The translations under genes were made by a program, and so were the position numbers. The notes beneath the pieces are model-generated. The model ran no database searches. It saw only the letters and a list, made by a program, of their open reading frames with translations, and was not told the origin of the DNA. DNA of 37,271 bases from Ardenticatenia bacterium (GTDB lineage Bacteria > Chloroflexota > Anaerolineae > 4572-78 > NAK82): NCBI GenBank assembly GCA_003130875.1, contig QEXY01000040.1:1-37271 (forward strand). Reading direction: 5' to 3'. This document shows positions 4,928-27,676 of this stretch, one piece after another; within the stretch, counting starts at the first letter, position 1; each line of letters starts with the position of its first letter.

Positions 4928-6604
4928 TCACCTTCCAGGTATCTCCAACACGGCTCCCCGGCTGGCACTGGTCACCATACTCGCATAGCGTGCCAGCCAT
5001 CCAGTAAGATGGGACTGTGAAGGCAGTCGCCACGCGGCACGTCGACGTGCCATTTCTTCCGCGGACAGGGCCACATTCAGTTGGCCAGCTGGGATGTCTA
5101 TCTCGATGATATCCCCATTGCGTAGTAGCGCGATGGGGCCTCCGGCAGCTGCCTCCGGACTCACGTGCCCGATACAGGCACCTCGGGTGCCGCCGGAGAA
5201 ACGGCCGTCTGTCACCAACGCTACGGAGCTTTCTAACCCCATCCCAATGATGTTGCTGGTGGGTGCCAGCATCTCTTGCATTCCCGGACCGCCGCGCGGA
5301 CCTTCGTTGCGGATGACCACCACCTCGCCCGGCTGCACCTCCCCGCTTAAGATGCCAGCGTTTGCCTCATCGTGGCTTTCATACACACGCGCCGGTCCGC
5401 GATGCCGTAGCATCTCGGGCAGCACACCGGCGGTCTTGACCACTGCCCCCTCAGGAGCCAGATTGCCGAACAAGATGGTCAAGCCACCTGTGGGACTATA
5501 GGGGTCGCGCACCGTACGGATGCATTCGGTGTCCTGGCTGTCACAACCTGCGATGTTTTCCCTCAAGGTCTTGCCGGTGACCGTCATCTGATCCAGGTGC
5601 AAAATGCCCGGCTTCTTGCTGAGTTCCCAAAGGATGGCACTGACGCCTCCGGCACGGTCCACGTCCTCCATATGATAAGGCGAGGAAGGGCTGACCTTGC
5701 ACAAAGTGGGCACCTGGCGGCTGATCTCGTTCAACCGCTCCAGCGGATATTGGATGCCCGCTTCCCACGTCAGAGCGATAGTGTGCAACACGGTATTGGT
5801 GCTGCCCCCCATCGCCATGTCAAGCGCGAAGGCGTTGTCAATTGCCTCGCGGGTGACGATATCGCGCGGCTTCAGGTCCATTTCGATCAGGCGCATGATC
5901 TGTCTTCCCGCTGCGCGAGCCAGCTCTTTACGTCGCGGATCAATCGCCAGGATGGTGCCGTTGCCAGGCAAGGCGAGGCCAAGCGCCTCACACAGGCAGT
6001 TCATGCTGTTGGCGGTAAACAGGCCGGAACACGAACCGCAGGTGGGGCATCCGTGGTCCTCGATCTCCTTCAGCTGTTCTTCGGAGATGACCCCCTTCTT
6101 ATAGGCGCCCACTGCCTGGAATACGCTGATCAGGTCCACCACTCTCCCATCCGGGGTACGGCCAGCCGCCATCGGGCCGCCACTGACAAAGATGGTGGGA
6201 ATGTTGCAGCGCAAGGCGGCCATCAGCATGCCAGGCACGATCTTGTCACAGTTGGGGATACAGACCATGCCATCGAACCAATGAGCCTTGATCATTGTCT
6301 CTACGCAATCGGCGATCAGCTCACGGCTTGGCAAGCTGTACTTCATGCCGATGTGGCCCATCGCGATGCCATCGTCCACCCCGATTGTGTTAAACATGAA
6401 TGGGACACCGCCCGCTTCGCGCACTGCTTGGCGCACTATCTCACCGAATTCGTTCAGATGAACGTGTCCTGGGATGATATCCACGTAGCTGTTGACAATG
6501 GCGATGAATGGCTTGCCCATATCGGCATCGGTGACACCCACCGCTTTTAGGAGACTGCGATGCGGTGCGCGTTCGAATCCTCGTTTGATGACATCACTGC
6601 GCAT
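4928..6604 (-). CDS. ilvD: Dihydroxy-acid dehydratase
   Basis: IlvD removes water from 2,3-dihydroxy-isovalerate and 2,3-dihydroxy-3-methylvalerate, giving the keto acids of valine and isoleucine. With the start chosen here it has 558 residues. Cys119 (PNCDK) and Cys186/189/192 (CPTCGSC) are the iron-sulfur ligand region. The N-terminal motif PGHVHL resembles the oxygen-sensitive [4Fe-4S] E. coli-type enzyme rather than the [2Fe-2S] type, which has a Cys there; the cluster type is inferred. The frame can be extended to a GTG at 6622, but the ATG at 6604 is preceded by AAGGAG at 7 nt spacing while the GTG lies inside that ribosome-binding site, so 6604 is preferred. It overlaps the leuB stop by 11 bp and is the last gene of the operon. 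It converges with the protease gene 13 bp away, and no hairpin is visible between them. Confidence 0.96.
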
Positions 6605-7688
6605 AGGTGAACTCCTTCTCACAAGCGGCTACGACCAGGTCTCCCATCGCGCGCGTGCTCACCGTTGGCTCGCCCGGCGCCGCCAGGTCGGCGGTGCGGT
6701 AGCCCGCGGCCAAGACGGTCTCTACAGCGCGCTCGATCACCTCTGCTTCACGCGACAACCCCAGCCCCAGGCGCAATAACATCGCAGCACTGAGGATAGT
6801 GGCGAGGGGATTGGCGATACCCTTGCCGGCAATATCGGGTGCTGAGCCATGGATCGGCTCAAACAGGCCGGGACGGCCCTCCCCCAAAGAGGCAGAGGGC
6901 AACATCCCCAATGACCCTGTCAACATAGAGGCTTCATCGGAGAGGATGTCGCCGAACATGTTCTCAGTGGCGATGACATCGAAGTCGGCAGGGCGGCGCA
7001 TCAGGTACATGGCGCACGCATCCACCAGCACATCCTCATACGCCACATCGGGGTAATCGCGCGCCACTTCGTGGGCCACTTCACGCCAGAGACGCGAGGT
7101 CGCCAGCACGTTGGCCTTGTCCACCGAGGTGATCTTCCGACGACGCGCGCGTGCCAGGTTGAAAGCAACGCGCATTAGACGTTCTATTTCTCGCTCATTG
7201 TAGCGCAAGGTGTCCACTGCACCACGCCCCTCAGGGGTTTGTTCGCGCCCTTGAGGTTGCCCGAAGTACAGACCACCGGTCAGCTCGCGCACGATAACCA
7301 GATCGACACCTTCTATCACCTCAGGTTTGAGAGGACTGGCTGATATCAGAGCAGGGATGACCCGGACCGGGCGCAGGTTAGCAAACAATCCGAGCTCTTT
7401 GCGGATTTTCAGAAGCCCTTGTTCCGGACGCACCTCGGCACGCGGGTCGCTCCAGCGCGGACCGCCTACAGCAGCCAGCAACACCGCGTCGCTGCGACGA
7501 CACATCTCCAGCGTCGCATCCGGCAGAGGATCGCCTGTTTCGTCGATGGCGACCCCGCCGATCAGCCCCTCTTGAAACGTCACCGTGTGACCAGCGCGAT
7601 GCAAGACCGTCTCAAGCACCTTGCGCGCCTCAGCAATGATTTCCGGCCCGATGCCATCGCCGGGAAGGAGAGTGATCGTGTAATGCAT
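6594..7688 (-). CDS. leuB: 3-Isopropylmalate dehydrogenase
   Basis: LeuB oxidises and decarboxylates 3-isopropylmalate to 2-oxoisocaproate in leucine synthesis, and also 3-methylmalate (from citramalate) to 2-oxobutyrate for isoleucine. The 364-residue length matches the family. Visible signatures are the N-terminal [10 protein letters not shown], the substrate-binding ELTGGLYFG, and the metal and NAD segment [25 protein letters not shown]. The ATG is 9 bp after the stop of the ybaK-like gene, and only a GGAG about 12 nt upstream is seen, so translation may be partly coupled to that gene. Its 3' end overlaps the ilvD start. Placement next to cimA and downstream of leuCD fits one enzyme set serving two pathways. 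Confidence 0.96.
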
Positions 7689-7697
7689 AGTAGATTG

Positions 7698-8174
7698 TTA
7701 CTCCGTCTTTAAGTCTGCAATGATGCCCTGGGTAGCACGGATCAGGTCATGCGGTGTGATGGCAAACACACTGTGCGGTGTTCCGGCAGCAGCCCACACC
7801 ACGTTGAAACCCATCAAGTCAGCATCTATGTATACTGGAAGGGTGGAGATGTGCCCGAAAGGGGGAATCCCTCCAATCGCAAAGCCGGTGATCGTCTTGG
7901 CAGTTTCTGCATCCGCGCGTTTCACATTGTGCGGAGTGGTGCCACGTAGCGCGGCCAATTTCGCCTCGCTCAGCCGATTGGCGCCTGACACAAGCGCGAG
8001 CACCGGTTGGCCATCGACGAGGAAGAGCAAACTCTTGACAATTTGGGCGACATGACAACCGATGGCGTTAGCTGCGTCGGGTGCGGTGCGCGTCGTCTCG
8101 GCGAATTCCACGATCTCGATGCTTAATCCCATTCCCTGCGCAGCATGGGCTACTTTTTGTGCGGAGGGATGCAT
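7698..8174 (-). CDS. YbaK/EbsC-family aminoacyl-tRNA trans-editing protein
   Basis: This 158-residue protein has the YbaK/prolyl-tRNA-editing fold. The conserved Lys47 in QIVKSLLF, the GANRLSEAKLAAL segment, the IGGIPPFGH loop and the C-terminal WAAAGTPHSVFAITPHDL are all as in the free-standing YbaK/ProXp group, which hydrolyses wrongly acylated tRNAs. The exact substrate (Cys-, Ala-, 2-aminobutyrate- or other-tRNA) cannot be read from the sequence. A GTG at 8177 is also in frame. The ATG at 8174 is preferred because it overlaps the cimA stop as TGATG and has GAGAGG at suitable spacing, so it is translationally coupled to cimA. Its place inside a branched-chain amino acid operon is unusual; see findings. 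Confidence 0.88.
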   Translation of the reverse strand: MHPSAQKVAHAAQGMGLSIEIVEFAETTRTAPDAANAIGCHVAQIVKSLLFLVDGQPVLALVSGANRLSEAKLAALRGTTPHNVKRADAETAKTITGFAIGGIPPFGHISTLPVYIDADLMGFNVVWAAAGTPHSVFAITPHDLIRATQGIIADLKTE

Positions 8175-9766
8175 CACGCACCTCTCTTTCTCTCTGTCTC
8201 GTGCAACAGAGCGTATTCCATACTGTCCGCCAGCGCACGCCAGCTGGCTTCGATGATGTTGGTGCTGGCACCGACCGTGCTCCAGTGGTAGGCGCCATCG
8301 CGTGTGTCGATGAGCACGCGCGTCGTGGCACCTGTCGCCTTGTCGCTATCCAAGATGCGCACTTTGTAGTCCACCAACTTGACAGTGGCCAGGCTGGGGT
8401 ACACGTCCAGCAACGCCTTGCGCAAAGCAGCGTCCAGTGCGTTGACCGGGCCGTTTCCCTCGGCGGCAGTATGGACGATCTTGGGACCGACACGCACTTT
8501 GACCGTTGCCTCGGCCAACAGTCCGCGCCCGCGCCGCCGCTCGACCAGCACCATAAAGTCGATCAGTTCAAAGGGTGGGACATAGCTTGGCAAGGTGCGG
8601 CGCAACATCAACTCAAAGGAGGCCTCCGCGCCCTCATAGGTAAAACCTTTCGCCTCCATTTGCTTAATCTGTTCTAACACCTCTGCGATCTGCGCACCAT
8701 CCACTTCGATGCCCAGCTGGCGCGCCTTCTCGATCACATTGCCACGCCCGGAGAGCTCCGAAACAACACTACGTCGCTCGTTTCCCACCAATGCCGGATC
8801 AATATGCTGGTAGCTGGACGGATTTTTCAACATCGCAGCGACGTGGAGACCACCTTTATGGGCAAAGGCGCTGGCGCCGACATAGGGCTGGTGATCGTCA
8901 TGTGTCAGGTTGGCGATCTCGGCGACGAAGCGAGACAGCTGGGTGAGATGGGTCAGCCGCTCCGGCGGCACGCAGAAGACACCCATCTTGAGCTGCAAAT
9001 TCGGGATGATCACGCAGAGATTGGCGTTAGCAACACGCTCACCGTATCCATTGATCGTCCCTTGAACATGGATAGCACCAGCACGCACGGCAGCCAACGT
9101 GTTGGCAACGCCGCAGCCGGTGTCATCGTGGCAATGGATGCCCAGCGGTGTGGTGAACCGTTCAGCCACCGCTTTCGTGATTTCCTCAACCTCCCACGGC
9201 AGACATCCCCCATTGGTGTCGCATAATACCAACACATCCGCGCCTGCTTCGGCAGCAGCCTGCAAGGTCGCCATTGCATAATCGGGGTTCGCTTTATAGC
9301 CGTCGAAGAAGTGTTCCGCATCAAAGTGCACCTCACGTTGTTGCGCTTTGACAAAGCGGATGCTCTCGCGGATCATAGCGAGGTTTTCTTCCATGGTGGT
9401 GCCGATGATTTCCGTGACGTGCATGTCCCAGCTCTTGCCCACCAGGGTGACGACAGGTGTCTCCGCCTGCAGGAGCGCAAGCAAGTTAGCGTCCTCTTCC
9501 GGGCGTATACCTTTCCGCCGGGTGCTTCCGAAAGCGGCCAATCGCGCATTGGAGAAGGACATCGCACGAGCACGCCGGAAGAATTCCGCATCCTTGGGGT
9601 TGGAGCCGGGCCATCCGCCCTCGATGTAGTGAATGCCGAACTCATCGAGACGGTGAGCAATTTTCAGCTTGTCATCCACCGACAACGAAATTCCTTCGCG
9701 CTGGGTGCCATCGCGCAATGTTGTGTCATAAAGAAACACCTGGGCTTTGCCCTGTTGCGTCTCCAT
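8174..9766 (-). CDS. cimA: (R)-citramalate synthase
   Basis: CimA condenses pyruvate and acetyl-CoA to citramalate, the threonine-independent entry to isoleucine. The 530-residue protein has a DRE-TIM barrel: DTTLRDGTQREGISLS at the N-terminus, the metal-binding His pair in IHCHDDTGCGVANTL, and NGYGERVANANL. A C-terminal LeuA-dimer-type regulatory domain follows from about residue 390. The motif YIEGGWPGSNPKD near residue 50 marks the citramalate synthase group (TIGR00977), whereas LeuA in this window has [13 protein letters not shown]. The start ATG directly abuts the leuD stop (TGAATG), with GGAGGAG inside the end of leuD. The C-terminal domain is usually where isoleucine inhibits. No ilvA is seen in the window. 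Confidence 0.92.
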   Translation of the reverse strand: METQQGKAQVFLYDTTLRDGTQREGISLSVDDKLKIAHRLDEFGIHYIEGGWPGSNPKDAEFFRRARAMSFSNARLAAFGSTRRKGIRPEEDANLLALLQAETPVVTLVGKSWDMHVTEIIGTTMEENLAMIRESIRFVKAQQREVHFDAEHFFDGYKANPDYAMATLQAAAEAGADVLVLCDTNGGCLPWEVEEITKAVAERFTTPLGIHCHDDTGCGVANTLAAVRAGAIHVQGTINGYGERVANANLCVIIPNLQLKMGVFCVPPERLTHLTQLSRFVAEIANLTHDDHQPYVGASAFAHKGGLHVAAMLKNPSSYQHIDPALVGNERRSVVSELSGRGNVIEKARQLGIEVDGAQIAEVLEQIKQMEAKGFTYEGAEASFELMLRRTLPSYVPPFELIDFMVLVERRRGRGLLAEATVKVRVGPKIVHTAAEGNGPVNALDAALRKALLDVYPSLATVKLVDYKVRILDSDKATGATTRVLIDTRDGAYHWSTVGASTNIIEASWRALADSMEYALLHETERKRGA

Positions 9767-10384
9767 TCACTCCTCCATAATGCGTGTGCTGACTCGTGCC
9801 GGATGCAATGCCTCGTACGCCTGGATGAGCGGCTCTTGCTTCAGCAAGTAACCCAATTGGTCAATGCCTTCCAATAGGCATTTCTTGTTGAAGGTATCGA
9901 TCGGGAAGTACACCTGCTTCCCATTGGGTAGAATGAGACTTTGCTCTGCCAGATCAATGGTGAGAACAGTGGACGGGTCAGCCTCCGCCATCTCGAAGAG
10001 CTGCCGATGAGTATCGATGTCTACGACCACCGGAAGTAAACCATTCTTGAGCGCATTGTTGCGAAAGATATCGGCAAAGGAAGTACTGATGATTGCCCGG
10101 AAGCCGAAGTCGATCAACGCCCACGGGGCATGCTCTCGGCTGGAGCCACAACCGAAATTATCTCCCACGAGCAGAATGCGTGCTTCGCGCGCTCCTGGCT
10201 GATTGATGGGAAAATCGGGCTTGGGGCTGCCATCCGGATTGTAGCGCCAATCAGCAAACAAATGCTGGCCCAGTCCCTCTTTGCTGATCGTTTTCAGAAA
10301 ACGTGCCGGGATGATTTGATCCGTGTCGATGTTGTCGATGGGCAGAGCGACGACTCGGCTTGTGATTCGCGTAAAGGGTTGCAT
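9767..10384 (-). CDS. leuD: 3-Isopropylmalate dehydratase small subunit
   Basis: LeuD is the swivelling small subunit that closes the active site of LeuC. Together they isomerise 2- to 3-isopropylmalate and citramalate to 3-methylmalate. The 205 residues match the bacterial long form (E. coli 201). Typical segments are the N-terminal ALPIDNIDTDQIIPARFL, GDNFGCGSSREHAPWAL and FADIFRNNALKNGLLP. A GGAG precedes the ATG by 9 nt, only 7 bp after leuC, so the two subunits are made from adjacent cistrons. The 3' end carries the ribosome-binding site of cimA. Confidence 0.96.
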   Translation of the reverse strand: MQPFTRITSRVVALPIDNIDTDQIIPARFLKTISKEGLGQHLFADWRYNPDGSPKPDFPINQPGAREARILLVGDNFGCGSSREHAPWALIDFGFRAIISTSFADIFRNNALKNGLLPVVVDIDTHRQLFEMAEADPSTVLTIDLAEQSLILPNGKQVYFPIDTFNKKCLLEGIDQLGYLLKQEPLIQAYEALHPARVSTRIMEE

Positions 10385-10391
10385 TGTTTAT

Positions 10392-11804
10392 CTACTCCAA
10401 CAGAGTGCGTGGGTCGGTGACGACACCCGTGATGGCCGCTGCGGCGGCAGTCAGCGGACTGGCGAGGAGTGTACGACCGCCAGGCCCCTGTCGTCCCTCG
10501 AAATTGCGGTTGCTGGTGCTCACAGCATACTGCCCAGGTTGCAGCTGGTCGCCGTTCATTGCGATGCACATGCTGCATCCCGATTCGCGCCACTCTGCAC
10601 CGGCTTCCAAAAAGATGCGATGTAATCCCTCAGCTTCCGCAGCCCGCTTGACCGATTGTGAGCCCGGCACCACCAGCACTCGAACACCTTCCTTGACACG
10701 GCGTCCCTTGAGCACACTGGCCGCCTGGCGCAGGTCAGAAAGTCGCCCATTCGTGCAGCTGCCGATGAACACCACGTCTATGGGATGGCCCAGGAGACGT
10801 TGTCCGGGTCTGAGTCCCATGTACCGCAGCGCCTTTTCCATCGCCTGGCGTTCACCGAGATCGGACACACCGGCAGGATCCGGAACGACCCCGGTGACCG
10901 GAATGGCCATGGCCGGGTTCGTGCCATAGGTGATCATCGGCTCCAGTCGCCTTGCGTCCAGTGTGATGGTGTGGTCAAAACGGGCATCGGGATCGCTGGG
11001 CAGCGCGCGCCACCGCTTCAGCGCTGCGTCCCAAGCTTCTCCTTTAGGGGCATACAGTCGGCCGGCCAGGTACTCAAAGGTGGTATCGTCCGGGGCAATC
11101 ATGCCCGCGCGGGCGCCGGCCTCGATACTCATGTTACATACAGTCATCCGCTCTTCCATCGACAGGGCGCGGATGGCTGGACCCGCATACTCAAACACAT
11201 AACCGGTACCTCCTCCGCTGCCAATTTGGGCGATCAGGCCCAGGATGAGGTCTTTGGCCGTCACCCCTTTGTTTAAATATCCATCGACGTACACCTGGCA
11301 GGTGCGCGGTTTGCGCTGCAGCAAGCATTGGGTGGCGAGCACATGCTCGACCTCGCTGGTGCCGATGCCGAAAGCGAGCGCCCCAAATGCCCCGTGGGTC
11401 GAAGTATGGCTGTCTCCACAAACGATGGTCATGCCCGGTTGGGTCAGCCCCAGCTCAGGGCCGATGACGTGGACGATGCCCCGCGTCGGGCTGCCGACGC
11501 CATAGAGCGGGATGCCGAACTCGCGACAATTTTCCACGATTTGCTGGATCTGACGGGCTGCCTGTGGGTCAGCAATTGGCACCTCAGGCGGTGTTGTGGG
11601 GATGCTATGATCGATCGTCGCGACCGTCTGGTGCGGACGCCGCACGCGCAGCCCACGTCGGCGCAAACCGTCAAATGCCTGAGGGGATGTGACCTCGTGG
11701 ATCAGGTGCAAATCGATATACAAGACAGCAGGGCTGTCCGGTTCCTCAACTACAACGTGGTCATCCCATATTTTATCGAAGAGGGTGCATGGTGTGGATG
11801 TCAT
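10392..11804 (-). CDS. leuC: 3-Isopropylmalate dehydratase large subunit
   Basis: LeuC is the aconitase-family catalytic subunit carrying a [4Fe-4S] cluster. The 470 residues match the bacterial long form (about 466). Cluster cysteines are seen in FIGSCTNGR and in GCSMCIAMN (CxxC), and the early motifs [18 protein letters not shown] and [23 protein letters not shown] are present. The start ATG has GGGAG 7 nt upstream and lies 32 bp after leuA. It works with LeuD on both isopropylmalate and citramalate, so it links the leucine and isoleucine branches here. Confidence 0.96.
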
Positions 11805-11836: not shown

Positions 11837-13498
11837 CTACGTTGTTGACGATGATAATGTCTCAGCCGGAGCAGCTTTCCGCGATCGGCGCTCCCGGTCG
11901 GCGATCAAGCGATTTAATGCGTTGATGTACGCACGTGCGCTGGCCACGATAATATCCGTGCTCACGCCATGGCCGCTATAAGTGCGTATAATGGGTTTGC
12001 CCGTTTGAGGATTGATGGGCAGGTCTTGGTCATCCTCGGCCGGCTGAATCCGGATGGTCACCTCGCCGGCGGCATCCATGCCCTCGGTGATCGCTTTGAC
12101 GCTGAATTCGTTCAGTGTATTCGGCACCTTCACAATACGGTTGATAGCTTTGTAAAGTGCATCCACCGGACCATAACCCAACGCCGCTTCCTCATATACC
12201 TGGCCATCCGGACCGGTCAGGCTGACGCTAGCGGTGGGCATGCTGTGATCACCACAGGAGACCTGGATATGGTTGAGATGCCATATTTCCGGGGGTTGGT
12301 AGACCTCGTCGGCGATGATGGCCTCGATATCCGCATCCGTGACCACCTTTTTCTTGTCTGCCCATCGCTTGAAACGTTCAAAAGCTTGATTGATTTCTTC
12401 TTCGGTCAGATCGGTGTACCCCAGTTCCTGCAAACGCACACGAAAGGCATGTCTGCCGGAGTGTTTGCCCAGCACCAGACGCGAGGTGGACAGTCCAACC
12501 GTCTCCGGGCGCATAATCTCGTAGGTGAGATGGCTCTTGAGCATACCATCTTGGTGGATACCAGCTTCATGAGCAAAGGCGTTGGCACCGACGATTGCCT
12601 TGTTGGGCTGCACGACGATACCAGTGTAGGAGCTGACCATACGGCTGGTGCGCATAATCTGGGTGGTGTCGATGTTGGTCTTCAACCCGAAGAGCTGCTG
12701 GCGCGTGTAGATGGCCATAACCACCTCTTCCAGCGAGGTATTGCCAGCTCTTTCGCCGATGCCATTGACGGTCACCTCGGCCTGACGGGCACCTGCACGG
12801 ATGCCGGCCAGGGTGTTGGCCGTCGCCAATCCCAGATCGTTGTGGCAATGCACCGACCATACCACGCGGTCCGCACCGGGCGTGTGCTGGATCAGATAGC
12901 GGATCAGCTGGCCAAACTCTTCTGGCGTCGTGTAGCCGACCGTGTCGGGGATGTTGATCGTGGTGGCACCGGCTTTGATCACTTCGCCGAGCACGATGGT
13001 CAGGAACTCCGGATCCGAACGTCCGGCATCTTCCGGCGAGAACTCGACGTCCTCGCACAGGCTACGCGCGTAAGCGACGGCTTCAGCGGCGCGTCGAATG
13101 CACTCCTCGCGACTGATTTGCAACTTGTGCTGCAGGTGGATGTCACTCGTGGCCAGAAAGGTGTGAATGCGATGACGCGGAGCCGCCTTGACCGCTTCGT
13201 AAGCGCGGTAGATGTCCTTCTGATTCGCACGCGCCAGGGCAGCGATGACCATCGGTTGGCCGGTCTTACGCCCTTCTGTCAGCGGTCCGACCTCTGAGGC
13301 GATCCGGCTGACCGCCTCAAAGTCACCAGGAGAGGCGATCGGGAAACCGGCTTCGCAGATATCTACCCCTAGCCGCGAGAGCTGGCGCGCTATCTCCAGC
13401 TTCTCATGGACGTCGAGCGTGGCGCCGGGCGATTGCTCTCCGTCGCGCAAGGTTGTGTCGAAAATGAGCAGGATATCCTGGGGTACGTGATCACCCAT
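11837..13498 (-). CDS. leuA: 2-Isopropylmalate synthase
   Basis: LeuA joins acetyl-CoA and 2-oxoisovalerate, the committed step to leucine. The 553-residue protein begins with the catalytic DRE-TIM barrel ([32 protein letters not shown]). It continues with the metal-binding [16 protein letters not shown] and [16 protein letters not shown], and ends with a LeuA-dimer domain from about residue 395 where leucine normally inhibits. The last 20-30 residues, rich in Arg and Ser, extend beyond the usual domain and look non-conserved. The ribosome-binding site is strong (AAGGAGG, 9 nt before ATG). It is a separate paralogue of cimA in the same operon, and motif differences assign the two reactions. 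Confidence 0.95.
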
Positions 13499-13531: not shown

Positions 13532-14545
<1,014 letters not shown>

Positions 14546-14623: not shown

Positions 14624-15136
14624 TTACGATACTCCATTGTGCCGGATGGGCGGTTTCGCGTTGCTGCCGCGCACCATCGCTACCTGTCCGGTACGCACCA
14701 TTTCCAAAATCCCAAAATTATTTAACAGTTTGACGAGCGAATCGATGCGCTCTTCTGTGCCAGCAATTTGGATGATCAGTGAATCCACGTCGACGTCTAC
14801 GATGTTGGCACGGTATATGTCCACCAGCTGGATGATCTCGGCCCGATTGGCGCTGGTGGCGCGCACTTTGATCAACGCCAGCTCGCGAATTACGGTAGGT
14901 TCGTTGGTGACATCCTCAATCGCGGTTACGTTAATCAGCTTGAACAACTGGGCCTGTACCTGATGGATCTGCCGGTCATCTCCGTCCACGACAAAGGTCA
15001 TGCGGCTGATGCCAGGGGTTTCGCTGTGTCCCACGGTCAAGCTCTCGATATTGAAGTTGCGCCGGCGAAAGAGACCCGCCACCCGGCTGAGCACGCCAGG
15101 TTTGTCTTCCATCCATGCGATGATCGTGTGTTTCAT
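14624..15136 (-). CDS. ilvN: Acetolactate synthase small (regulatory) subunit
   Basis: This 170-residue ACT-domain subunit binds valine and stimulates or feedback-inhibits IlvB. The N-terminal ACT domain is clear ([29 protein letters not shown]), followed by the second ACT-like C-terminal domain ([18 protein letters not shown]...). A GTG at 15145 would overlap the ilvB stop as GTGA, but the ATG at 15136 has GAGGAG at 8 nt spacing, so the ATG is preferred. The ribosome-binding site lies inside the last ilvB codons, favouring coupled synthesis of the two subunits. The symbol ilvN is used although ilvH is an equally common name for this type. Confidence 0.95.
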
Positions 15137-15141
15137 TGGGT

Positions 15142-16857
15142 TCACTCCTCTTCGACTTCTGCGGGCAACGGCCGACGGATCATGTCGGCATTGCTTTTAC
15201 CGGGTGCCACCATAGGATAGACGTTGGTGAAAGGCTCGACCTGGAACTCGATCAAGAATGGACCATTGTGCGCCTGAGCTTGGCGGATGGCCGGCGCCAC
15301 CCCTGCGCGATCGGTCACGCGCAGGGCTGGGATGTTATACGCTTCAGCAATCTTGACAAAATCGGGGTTGTAAAGTGCTGTGCTGGCGTAGCGCTTATTG
15401 TAGAACACGTCCTGCCACTGGCGCACCATGCCCAGGTAGCCATTATTGAAAATGGCGATCTTGAGTGGCAGCCCTTCCTTGGCAACAGTGGACAGCTCAC
15501 CCATTGTCATCTGGAAACCACCGTCGCCGGCAATCACCCAGACCGTCTCGTCGGGGCGGCCCATTTGCACCCCGATCGCCGCCGGCAAGGCGAATCCCAT
15601 CGTGCCCAGTCCACCCGAGGTGAACAGACTTCTCCGTTTGACGTGCAGGAAGTATTGCGCTTCCCACATCTGGTGTTGCCCCACGTCGGTCACCACGATG
15701 CAGTTCCCGCCATCCGTCAGATGCCACAACTGACGCACGATGAAGGGAGGCACCAAGTCATCGGTTTCCTGGGCCAGCAGGTCGCGCCGGTCGGTATCGC
15801 GTTTCCACTCAGCAATTTGTTCCATCCAAGAGGTGTGCTGGTTGGGTTCCACCAGTGGGATGAGTTCGCGCAAGGTCAGTTTGGCATCTCCAACCAGAGG
15901 AACGTCAATGCGCAGATTCTTGCCCAGCTCCGCCGGGTCGAGGTCCAGATGGATGATGCGTGCCTTGGGGGCGAAGGTGCTGAAGGCGCCGGTGAGCCGG
16001 TCGTCCAGACGCGCGCCGATGACCAACAGCACGTCGCTTTCTTGCAAGGCGTAGTTTGTGAAAGCTTCCCCATGCATACCTCCCCACCCGATGGAAAGCG
16101 GATGGGTCTGTGGGATGGCGCCGATGCCGAGCAGGCTGGTCGCCACCGGGATGTGAGCCTTCTCAGCTAACTGAACCAGCTCGTCTTCGGCATTGGCGAT
16201 GATGACCCCGTGACCAGCCAGGATGACCGGTCGTTCGGCCAGGTTAAGGAGTTGTGCCGCGCGCGCAACGCCTTCCGGATCAGCAGCGGTCAGCTTGGGT
16301 TGATAACCGGGCAGATTGACTTCTTCGGGATAGATGCACTCGGTCTCCGCCTGCTGAACATCTTTGCAGATATCAACTAAGACGGGGCCGGGCCGTCCGG
16401 TGCGCGCGATATAGAATGCTTCCTTGAGCACCTGGGCTAACTCACGCACATCGGTCACGAGATAATTGTGTTTTGTGATGGGCATGCTGACGCCATGGAT
16501 ATCCGCTTCCTGGAACCCATCGCGTCCTAGCAAGCTCGTCGGCACCTGACCAGTGATGGCCACCACGGGCGAGGAATCCATGTATGCAGTTGCCAGACCA
16601 GTGGTCAGGTTCGTGGCCCCTGGTCCCGAGGTGGCCATACATACGCCGACACGGCCGGTGGCCCGTCCATAGCCGTCGGCCATGTGCGCCGCCCCCTGTT
16701 CGTGGGTTACCAATACGTGGCGGATCGGATACTCATACTTGGCCAACGCGTCGTAGATGGGCAGTGTTGCCCCACCGGGCAGACCGAACACTACCTCCAC
16801 CCCCTCGCGCAACAAGCTCTCCCAGACGATCTGTGCGCCCGTTTTCCTCTCGGCCAT
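15142..16857 (-). CDS. ilvB: Acetolactate synthase large (catalytic) subunit
   Basis: IlvB uses thiamine diphosphate, FAD and Mg to make acetolactate from pyruvate, and acetohydroxybutyrate from pyruvate plus 2-oxobutyrate. The 571 residues match the family. Present are the N-terminal [15 protein letters not shown], the catalytic Glu53 in [18 protein letters not shown], the central FAD-binding domain, and the thiamine-binding [12 protein letters not shown]...[12 protein letters not shown] near the C-terminus. The latter segment supports a genuine biosynthetic enzyme rather than a pyruvate oxidase. The ATG has GGAGGAG at 8 nt spacing. It is the first structural gene of the operon, about 340 nt after the transcription start, behind the attenuator. 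Confidence 0.96.
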
Positions 16858-16907: not shown

Positions 16908-16946
16908 CAGGCGCTCGAAAGCCCTATTGTCATGGCCGAGCGCCTG
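16908..16946 (-). other. 10-bp stem-loop between attenuator and ilvB
   Basis: A perfect 10-bp inverted repeat (caggcgctcg at 16908-16917 with cgagcgcctg at 16937-16946) encloses a 19-nt loop. In the ilvB transcript it lies about 50 nt before the start codon and leaves the ribosome-binding site free. No T-run follows on either strand, so it is not an ordinary terminator. It could stabilise the mRNA or bind a protein; its function is unknown. Confidence 0.6.
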
Positions 16947-17014
16947 TGCCCTTTGCCCACTTTTGACTGAATATGGTGCGAATCGGTTCAGCTTCTGCTC
17001 CTCTATAAACCGAA

Positions 17015-17038
17015 GGGCCTCCCTGATCTGGGAGGCCC
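17015..17038 (-). terminator. Attenuator terminator of the ilv-leu operon
   Basis: A perfect 9-bp GC-rich stem (GGGCCTCCC with GGGAGGCCC, loop of 6) lies in the leader between the leader peptide and ilvB. On the transcribed strand it is followed by CTTCGGTTTAT, a modest U-rich tail. Two further A-T pairs can be added across a one-base bulge. It is segment 3:4 of the attenuator described in the findings. Confidence 0.85.
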
Positions 17039-17144
17039 CTTGGTAGTCTAATCTGGATCACTTGGGTCGCGCGTCAACCTCCCAGCAGCAAAGAAGGGCT
17101 CACAATAAGGAGCACTACAATTACAATAATGATAATGCTGCTGG
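17028..17144 (-). promoter_or_regulatory. Pause hairpin and antiterminator segments of the ilv-leu attenuator
   Basis: Segment 1 (CCAGCAGCA, 17136-17144) lies just before the Ile/Val/Leu codon run and is fully complementary over 9 bases to segment 2 (TGCTGCTGG, 17082-17090) near the end of the leader ORF. An overlapping part of segment 2 (CTGGGAGG, 17078-17085) is fully complementary over 8 bases to CCTCCCAG (17028-17035), the 5' arm and loop edge of the terminator; two G-U pairs extend it. A ribosome stalled at the hydrophobic codons would cover segment 1 and free segment 2 to block the terminator. A ribosome at the stop codon would cover segment 2 and let the terminator form. Confidence 0.82.
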
Positions 17145-17175
17145 TGATCAGAACGTGCAACCCTCTCACACGCAT
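17074..17175 (-). CDS. Ile/Val/Leu leader peptide of the branched-chain operon
   Basis: This is a 33-codon ORF starting ATG at 17175, with AGGA a few bases upstream and a TGA at 17074. Residues 14-25 are IIIIVIVVLLIV, twelve consecutive regulatory amino acids; another V-L-I group and LLL flank them. Such runs are the hallmark of ribosome-mediated attenuation leaders (compare the enteric ilvL and ilvB leaders in principle; the sequence itself is different). All three branched-chain amino acids are represented, fitting an operon that makes all three. It begins about 24 nt after the predicted transcription start and ends 36 nt before the terminator stem. The peptide itself probably has no other role. 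The ORF is too short for automatic gene callers and would normally be missed. Confidence 0.9.
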   Translation of the reverse strand: MRVRGLHVLITSSIIIIVIVVLLIVSPSLLLGG

Positions 17176-17205
17176 ACTTCCTGCCTGAATTCTAAATCAA
17201 CACCT

Positions 17206-17234
17206 ATATTAGCACATAGATCAATTTTTGTCAA
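17206..17234 (-). promoter_or_regulatory. Sigma70-type promoter of the ilv-leu operon
   Basis: The -35 box TTGACA (17229-17234) is perfect. It is separated by exactly 17 bp from the -10 box TAATAT (17206-17211), which is preceded by TGC, an extended -10. Transcription should start near 17199, about 24 nt before the leader-peptide ATG. No other promoter of this quality is seen between here and ilvD. Confidence 0.85.
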
Positions 17235-26779: not shown

Positions 26780-27676
26780 ATGCTCGATTTTCTCAAAGGT
26801 GGCAAAGCGACCGTAACGATCACGGTCGACCGTCCTGCCCAACCCTACTTCACGGGCGAGACAATTCAGGTGAAAGCTGAGGTTCAAGTACAAAAGGAAC
26901 TCAAAATCACCGAGGCACGCGCTCAGCTGGTCTGTCAAGAGAAATATCAATACCGTGACGAGAGTAGGGACATAGATGATGATGGCGGTGCACACTCCAG
27001 TATCGAAAAGAAATGGGCAACGGTCGAACAGGTGGTCTGTCAACAGTCACTGCTGCCAGAGGATACCCTTCCAAGCGGTTTCAGTCGATCCTTCGAATTC
27101 GTAGCCCCCATCCCCGTCGACGCGCCCCCAACCTGCCGAAACGGCAAGATCGTGAGTGTCGAGTGGTTTGTCAGGGCGACGCTCGCCCGTAAGCTGGCCC
27201 GGGATATCGAAGCCTTGGTGCCCATCCAGCTGCTTTCCGCTCCCACCGGTGAGGCGGCCAGGGAAGGTGTGTATGGGTTTTCCAATGAGCCGGACGAAGC
27301 AACCCTCCATTTTGCCTTGAGCTCGCTGGAATGGTGTTTGGGCGACACCGTGCAAGGCACATTCGTGGTACAGCCCCAGAAAGGTTTCGACGTGTCGGAA
27401 GTGCGGTTGGAGCTGGGGCGTCAGGAGTACGTGCCACAGGGCAAAGGCAACACATTTCGTGAGGCGAAGCAGATCAAGCTGGCCGGCCGAATGCGCCTGC
27501 AACCTGGCCAGGAGCTGGCCATTCCTTTCAGCATCGCCATTCCGGAAGCTGCACCGGTGACGATGCGCACGCCCCATAGCACAGTGACATGGTCCCTGAT
27601 GGGAGTCCTTGCGCGGTCATTACGGCGTGATACGTATGTAGAACAGGAGCTCTTCGTCTTCAGCAGGCGTCACTGA
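26780..27676 (+). CDS. Spo0M/arrestin-fold protein
   Basis: The 298-residue soluble protein matches the two-lobed arrestin-like beta-sandwich family that contains Bacillus Spo0M (SpoOM/Vps26-like). The N-terminal lobe has VTITVDRPAQPYFTGETIQVKAEVQV, then the strand LPSGFSRSFEFVAPIPVDAPPT and VEWFVRATLARKLARDIEA. The C-terminal lobe has FALSSLEWCLGDTVQGTFVV and IPFSIAIPEAAPVTMRTPHSTVTWSLMGVLAR. No signal peptide or membrane segment is present. In Bacillus the family member affects sporulation control and cytoskeleton contacts; its role here is unknown, and no sporulation genes are seen nearby. AAGGAG lies 6 nt before the ATG. It is preceded by a promoter and stands about 100 bp before the methyltransferase gene, so it may be separate. 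Confidence 0.82.
   Translation: MLDFLKGGKATVTITVDRPAQPYFTGETIQVKAEVQVQKELKITEARAQLVCQEKYQYRDESRDIDDDGGAHSSIEKKWATVEQVVCQQSLLPEDTLPSGFSRSFEFVAPIPVDAPPTCRNGKIVSVEWFVRATLARKLARDIEALVPIQLLSAPTGEAAREGVYGFSNEPDEATLHFALSSLEWCLGDTVQGTFVVQPQKGFDVSEVRLELGRQEYVPQGKGNTFREAKQIKLAGRMRLQPGQELAIPFSIAIPEAAPVTMRTPHSTVTWSLMGVLARSLRRDTYVEQELFVFSRRH

Follow-up and report, generated by a model that had tools for sequence, protein, structure and literature searches.

The ilv-leu operon in the window (the whole 37,271-nucleotide stretch of DNA analysed here, a contig of a 3.49-Mb assembly) is preceded by a leader containing a promoter, a short open reading frame (ORF) with an uninterrupted run of Ile, Val and Leu codons, alternative RNA pairings and a terminator hairpin. 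From the anatomy of this leader, its conservation and its covariation we infer, with a probability of roughly nine in ten, that the operon is controlled by ribosome-mediated transcription attenuation, ribosome stalling, termination and the response to amino acids included. The mechanism is already known in other phyla, and a Chloroflexota example seems to be unreported as far as we found. The nearest relatives of the ilvB protein are encoded by MAGs labelled Ardenticatenia, Anaerolineae and Chloroflexi, which places the host in Chloroflexota and probably in the class Anaerolineae.

Anatomy of the leader and its operon

A preliminary description of this DNA had listed a promoter, an ORF of 33 codons that includes 12 consecutive Ile/Val/Leu codons, complementarities of 9 and 8 bp and a perfect 9-bp terminator, all of which were recovered when checked against the sequence, at coordinates that proved exact on the minus strand. 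The features of the leader are as follows.

17206–17234, minus strand: sigma-70-type promoter TTGACA-N17-TAATAT, with 10/12 consensus matches and a TG ahead of the -10 (extended -10)
17074–17175, minus strand: leader peptide ORF of 33 codons plus TGA, read from the sequence, with equivalently placed ORFs in 93 other upstream regions
17136–17144, minus strand: segment 1, CCAGCAGCA, the 5' arm of the 1:2 protector hairpin, forming 9 bp with segment 2 and extending out to 17163
17101–17136, minus strand: regulatory run of 12 consecutive Ile/Val/Leu codons, IIIIVIVVLLIV, codons 14–25 of the leader ORF
17078–17090, minus strand: segment 2, TGCTGCTGGGAGG, partner of segment 1 or segment 3, within the last codons of the leader ORF
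17028–17035, minus strand: segment 3, CCTCCCAG, partner of segment 2 (antiterminator) or, via CCTCCC, of segment 4 (terminator)
17015–17038, minus strand: terminator hairpin GGGCCTCCC-AGATCA-GGGAGGCCC, a perfect 9-bp GC-rich stem with the tail TTCGGTTTAT

The -35 hexamer TTGACA (17234-17229) and the -10 hexamer TAATAT (17211-17206) are separated by a 17-nt spacer, and transcription probably starts at about 17199. The leader ORF begins with the ATG at 17175, has a modest Shine-Dalgarno match, and ends with the TGA at 17076-17074, encoding the peptide MRVRGLHVLITSSIIIIVIVVLLIVSPSLLLGG. Its regulatory run reads ATT ATC ATT ATT GTA ATT GTA GTG CTC CTT ATT GTG, so that ATT accounts for five of the six Ile codons, against 17% in the ten neighbouring genes (p = 0.0007). 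Leader runs across the class are likewise skewed, with 80% ATT and 49% CTT; a possible effect of this skew is to keep the run free of structure, or else to sharpen the response.

Segment 1 (17144-17136) is complementary to the TGCTGCTGG portion of segment 2 (17090-17082), and the antiterminator is formed by pairing of CTGGGAGG (17085-17078) with segment 3 (17035-17028), such that the 1:2, 2:3 and 3:4 pairings are mutually exclusive. Segment 1 abuts the codon run and segment 2 ends 2 nt ahead of the stop codon. The main local weakness is the poor U-tract of the terminator, UUCGGUUUAU, because of which a simple, strict terminator scan scores no match at this position. The terminator hairpin scored 36.8; none of the shuffled controls reached 34.

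The folding energy of the complete leader is -74 kcal/mol (z = -3.86; 0/200 shuffles as good), and the scores of the 1:2 and 2:3 pairings were matched by 8/500 and 14/500 dinucleotide shuffles, respectively. When sub-transcripts were folded as if no translation occurred, an extended 1:2 hairpin (17163-17064) formed, followed by the terminator. Masking the RNA upstream of 17120 or 17108, with segment 4 absent, led to formation of 2:3, and placing a ribosome at the stop codon left only the terminator. With segment 4 already present the terminator is more stable, and the switch must therefore be kinetic, as in known attenuators. The segment positions and these predicted folds support the geometry of ribosome-mediated attenuation proposed in the preliminary description.

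In the proposed mechanism, the promoter at 17234-17206 would give rise to a leader of about 190 nt. With charged Ile-, Val- and Leu-tRNA in good supply, translation would continue to the stop codon and the ribosome would cover segment 2, upon which the 3:4 terminator would form and transcription would end near 17010. If the cell ran short of any one of these amino acids, the ribosome would stall within the run, masking segment 1 and freeing segment 2. The latter would then pair with segment 3 ahead of the synthesis of segment 4, letting polymerase enter ilvB and nine more genes. Without translation the 1:2 hairpin would form, and the operon would be off by default.

The ten ORFs downstream of the leader could be named as follows, in agreement with the ten-gene operon described earlier, although the eighth scored below its curated cut-off.

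15142–16857, minus strand: ilvB, acetolactate synthase large subunit (TIGR00118, 744 bits, above cut-off)
14624–15145, minus strand: ilvN, acetolactate synthase small subunit (TIGR00119)
13532–14542, minus strand: ilvC, ketol-acid reductoisomerase (TIGR00465)
11837–13498, minus strand: leuA, 2-isopropylmalate synthase (TIGR00973)
10392–11804, minus strand: leuC, isopropylmalate dehydratase large subunit (TIGR00170)
9767–10384, minus strand: leuD, isopropylmalate dehydratase small subunit (TIGR00171)
8174–9766, minus strand: cimA, citramalate synthase, for isoleucine from pyruvate (TIGR00977, 750 bits, above cut-off)
7698–8177, minus strand: YbaK-like aminoacyl-tRNA deacylase (TIGR00011, 68 bits, below the curated 153-bit cut-off)
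6594–7688, minus strand: leuB, 3-isopropylmalate dehydrogenase (TIGR00169)
4928–6622, minus strand: ilvD, dihydroxy-acid dehydratase (TIGR00110)

The order ilvB-ilvN-ilvC-leuA-leuC-leuD-cimA-YbaK-like-leuB-ilvD is interrupted by gaps of at most about 80 nt. The operon makes precursors of Ile (from pyruvate via citramalate), Val and Leu, which fits a leader reading all three amino acids. The YbaK-like deacylase gene lies within the ilv-leu operon, between cimA and leuB. Elsewhere in the window, positions 26780–27676 of the plus strand encode a protein that matches Spo0M and has both of the arrestin-like domains, N and C.

Conservation of the leader and alternative explanations

To follow the leader across relatives, ilvB upstream regions were gathered from public genomes, from members of the same family, order, class and phylum, and from 120 further stretches. 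A leader was scored wherever a strong ILV run fell within an ORF no longer than 70 codons. Of 264 regions 94 contained such a leader; the reverse strand gave 2, and dinucleotide shuffles about 1. The class loci for which 390 nt or more of upstream sequence was available comprise 79 with the leader and 44 lacking it; 39 of the latter have a same-strand gene directly upstream, placing ilvB inside its operon there. Where no same-strand gene precedes ilvB, and ilvB is apparently first, 67 of 72 class loci carry the leader. Outside the class but within the phylum, leaders were also seen in families f71, f76 and f102, on thinner evidence.

Of 84 distinct leaders, 83 have an intrinsic terminator 3' of the stop codon, and 97.6% of leaders reach a terminator score that 2-3% of shuffled sequences reach. 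Most relatives have a good U-tract after the terminator, whereas it is poor in the genus of the window (TTCGGTTTAT and TTCGATTTAT). A second species of this genus retains both promoter hexamers and their spacing (TTGACA-N17-TATTAT) together with all pairing arms, its 1:2 pairing being shorter than that of the window.

The sequence of the antiterminator varies by family (GGGGGCGTTTG:CAAACGCCTCC, TGTTGGGTG:CGCCCAACA, GGTTGGAAGG:CCTTCCGACC, GCGTTGGGAGG:CCTCCCAACGC and GCGCTGAGGGG:CCCCTCAGCGC). Despite these differences, segment 2 of every leader fits its own terminator arm, with a mean 2:3 score of 23.6 for the leader's own pairing versus 17.6 after exchange of arms among loci (z = 16.6). When each of the 21 families was represented by one leader only, the covariation was still evident at z = 7.0, a value reached in 0/20,000 permutations. 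The preliminary description had expected homologous leaders to preserve the codon run and both alternative pairings; the run and the 2:3 pairing are indeed kept, but class-wide the 1:2 pairing lies only slightly above swapped controls (z = 2.9), which lends it weak support. In the leader peptides of relatives, only the ILV run and the residues dictated by RNA pairing with the terminator arm are kept. The location of segment 2 inside the ORF would explain the otherwise odd conservation of the peptide C-terminus (KGAF, EPLPVG, VG). In two variant loci (L179 and L185) the stop codon of the ORF directly follows the run, and segment 2 is found just beyond that stop codon, outside the ORF.

Other explanations of the leader were weighed against these data. 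The ORF could encode a small single-span membrane protein that lies ahead of ilvB by chance, the hairpin being the ordinary terminator of that transcript, and indeed the hydrophobicity of the peptide would suffice for a membrane span, and its ORF is equipped with its own promoter and terminator. However, the RNA covaries and the peptides of relatives show no conservation beyond that described above, which makes a membrane protein unlikely; moreover, the ORF is always positioned upstream of ilvB together with a covarying 2:3 pairing, and a membrane span has no need of the ATT codon skew. Taken together, this explanation appears very unlikely indeed. Coincidence of an ILV-rich ORF with a nearby terminator is extremely improbable given the recurrence and covariation of the arrangement across more than 20 families, even though the shuffle statistics of each pairing in the single genome (8/500 and 14/500) are modest.

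The choice between 2:3 and 3:4 could alternatively fall to another sensor, such as a riboswitch, a T-box or an RNA-binding protein, with the ORF setting the basal level only. Such a role would recall the ilvB leader of Streptomyces coelicolor, where codon mutations are described, in a passage of PMC1262725 that cites the work, as being without effect on regulation. Against it, a search for Rfam families returned 0 matches at gathering thresholds in the window and at eight related loci, by a method that finds a T-box at trpE, and the ILV run is the sole conserved part of the leader apart from the pairings. Control by another sensor is thus considered very unlikely. Ribosome-mediated attenuation is further favoured by the identity of the three amino acids of the run with the end products of the operon (Ile via cimA, Val and Leu). 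Counting against attenuation in its simple form is a second terminator between the first and ilvB in many relatives, which it leaves unexplained.

Relation to known attenuation systems

Ribosome-mediated attenuation at ilv operons is textbook knowledge in enterobacteria, where the ilvGMEDA and ilvBN attenuators of E. coli combine a leader peptide of mixed Ile, Val and Leu residues, alternative hairpins and a terminator ahead of a branched-chain amino acid (BCAA) operon. The leader of the window shares each of these elements with the E. coli systems, but comes from another phylum, has no sequence similarity to them and has no Rfam match. Unlike the E. coli ilv systems, the operon of the window includes leuABCD and cimA, and a single leader thereby covers three pathways. 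Attenuation of E. coli ilvB is cited in a passage of PMC10272879.

Attenuation of this kind has been described for Actinobacteria as well, whose ilvB leaders (Corynebacterium, Mycobacterium and Streptomyces) are similar in having a BCAA-rich upstream ORF, a terminator and an antiterminator (PMC10272879, PMC1262725), and reporter control has been shown for the ilvB-II motif of Corynebacterium (PMC10272879). For the leaders treated in PMC1262725, however, codon runs and candidate terminators share sequence, and the mode of control was called unclear, whereas in the window the run, segment 2 and the terminator occupy distinct stretches and the antiterminator pairing shows covariation.

T-box leaders likewise attenuate transcription in answer to aminoacyl-tRNA status, although they read uncharged tRNA directly. 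A T-box at ilvB of the window was ruled out, no Rfam covariance model matching upstream of the gene, with trpE serving as the positive control. The trpE gene of the same genome is preceded by a T-box leader (RF00230, 96.4 bits; L328, 3053–3387, minus strand). With a T-box at trpE and the proposed leader-peptide attenuator at ilvB, two sensors of tRNA charging would share the amino acid operons of one genome. A Trp leader at trpE was sought within the same order to test the generality of attenuation, and none was found.

A 2010 survey described leader-peptide systems as previously known from Proteobacteria and Actinobacteria only, and added Firmicutes (PMC2965389). In our literature searches no published report of leader-peptide attenuation in Chloroflexi/Chloroflexota was found, in agreement with the preliminary description, which had called such leaders little documented in this group; subscription papers such as the survey of Lopatovskaya et al. 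2010 lay outside the scope of these searches, and that survey may contain one. Leader-peptide attenuation would be the prevailing ilvB arrangement across one class of Chloroflexota, and other classes of the phylum also contain candidates. This prevalence suggests an earlier origin of the mechanism, or an easier reinvention of it, than published work would indicate. With more than 80 leaders aligned, the mechanism can be tested directly in cultured Anaerolineae or Chloroflexia; the alignment also exposes a second conserved control element, which is undescribed so far as we found.

A second terminator element upstream of ilvB

Many relatives have, between the attenuator and ilvB, a second terminator with RGCAAYGANGCC ahead of it (L084, L085, L101, L112-L118, L130-L150, L153, L165, L171 and L202), and 38 of the 40 loci bearing this element also have an ILV leader. 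Its stem covaries, with 91.8% of cells paired, 35 double changes and a covariation score as high in 0/500 shuffles. The 5' side of the element can form a GGC-AAYGAN-GCC hexaloop hairpin that overlaps the 5' arm of the terminator, and formation of this hexaloop would sequester that arm. Across 22 sequences from relatives, the G at loop position 4 is invariant and the A at position 1 is present in at least 90%. A degenerate counterpart was identified in the window.

16909–16951, minus strand: degenerate second element, a GGGC-ACAGGC-GCTC hexaloop hairpin overlapping a AGGCGCTCG...CGAGCGCCT stem, positioned as in relatives

This counterpart has the hexaloop and the stem but no U-tract, and is therefore probably decayed in this genus.

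The hexaloop-terminator element was also found 5' of gltB-like (L303, L304, L305 and L308) and thrC-like (L295) ORFs, that is, upstream of glutamate synthase in four genomes and of threonine synthase in one, the names being assigned by eye from the proteins. No ILV leader was found at these gltB or thrC loci. The element was also recorded at an ilvB locus (L296). A pattern search was used in place of a covariance model (R1), for which RNAalifold had picked only a four-pair hairpin; because its pattern is rigid, many members escape it, and chance matches in coding regions are numerous. A short pattern, GGGCAANGACGCC, was uninformative within the window's own genome, giving hundreds of matches at two mismatches versus about 230 in the control.

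The element resembles the RNA targets of ANTAR proteins (EutV, NasR and AmiR) in placing a hexaloop with A1 and G4 over the 5' arm of a terminator, and it matches the published 13-mer of the ANTAR P2 hairpin, AGCAANGRRGCUY (PMC3369931), the counterpart here being RGCAAYGANGCCY. It differs from these targets in that the required upstream P1 hairpin with the same hexaloop is absent from most of the second-element loci examined, and in that the terminator in the window is without a U-tract. The genome of the window encodes one ANTAR protein. ANTAR genes occur in 36 of 40 element-bearing genomes versus 62 of 82 others, a difference that is not significant (p = 0.09). In a genome of the same family (G001), an ANTAR response regulator is encoded between histidine-kinase-like and glutamine-synthetase-like genes (L320; names by eye), a neighbourhood that suggests a link to nitrogen.

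A tentative reading, to which we give clearly less than even odds, is that ilvB of Anaerolineae is governed by two independent terminators in series, the Ile/Val/Leu attenuator followed by a probable ANTAR-type single-hexaloop antiterminator common to gltB and thrC, and that the genus of the window has lost the second gate. If so, amino acid supply and a two-component signal, perhaps for nitrogen, would be coupled on one transcript. A different second terminator was observed in family f37 (L102, L103 and L109), where a conserved GCAGAAAAC...GTTTTCTGC stem, preceded in part by GGAAACGGCCGT, lies between the attenuator and ilvB.
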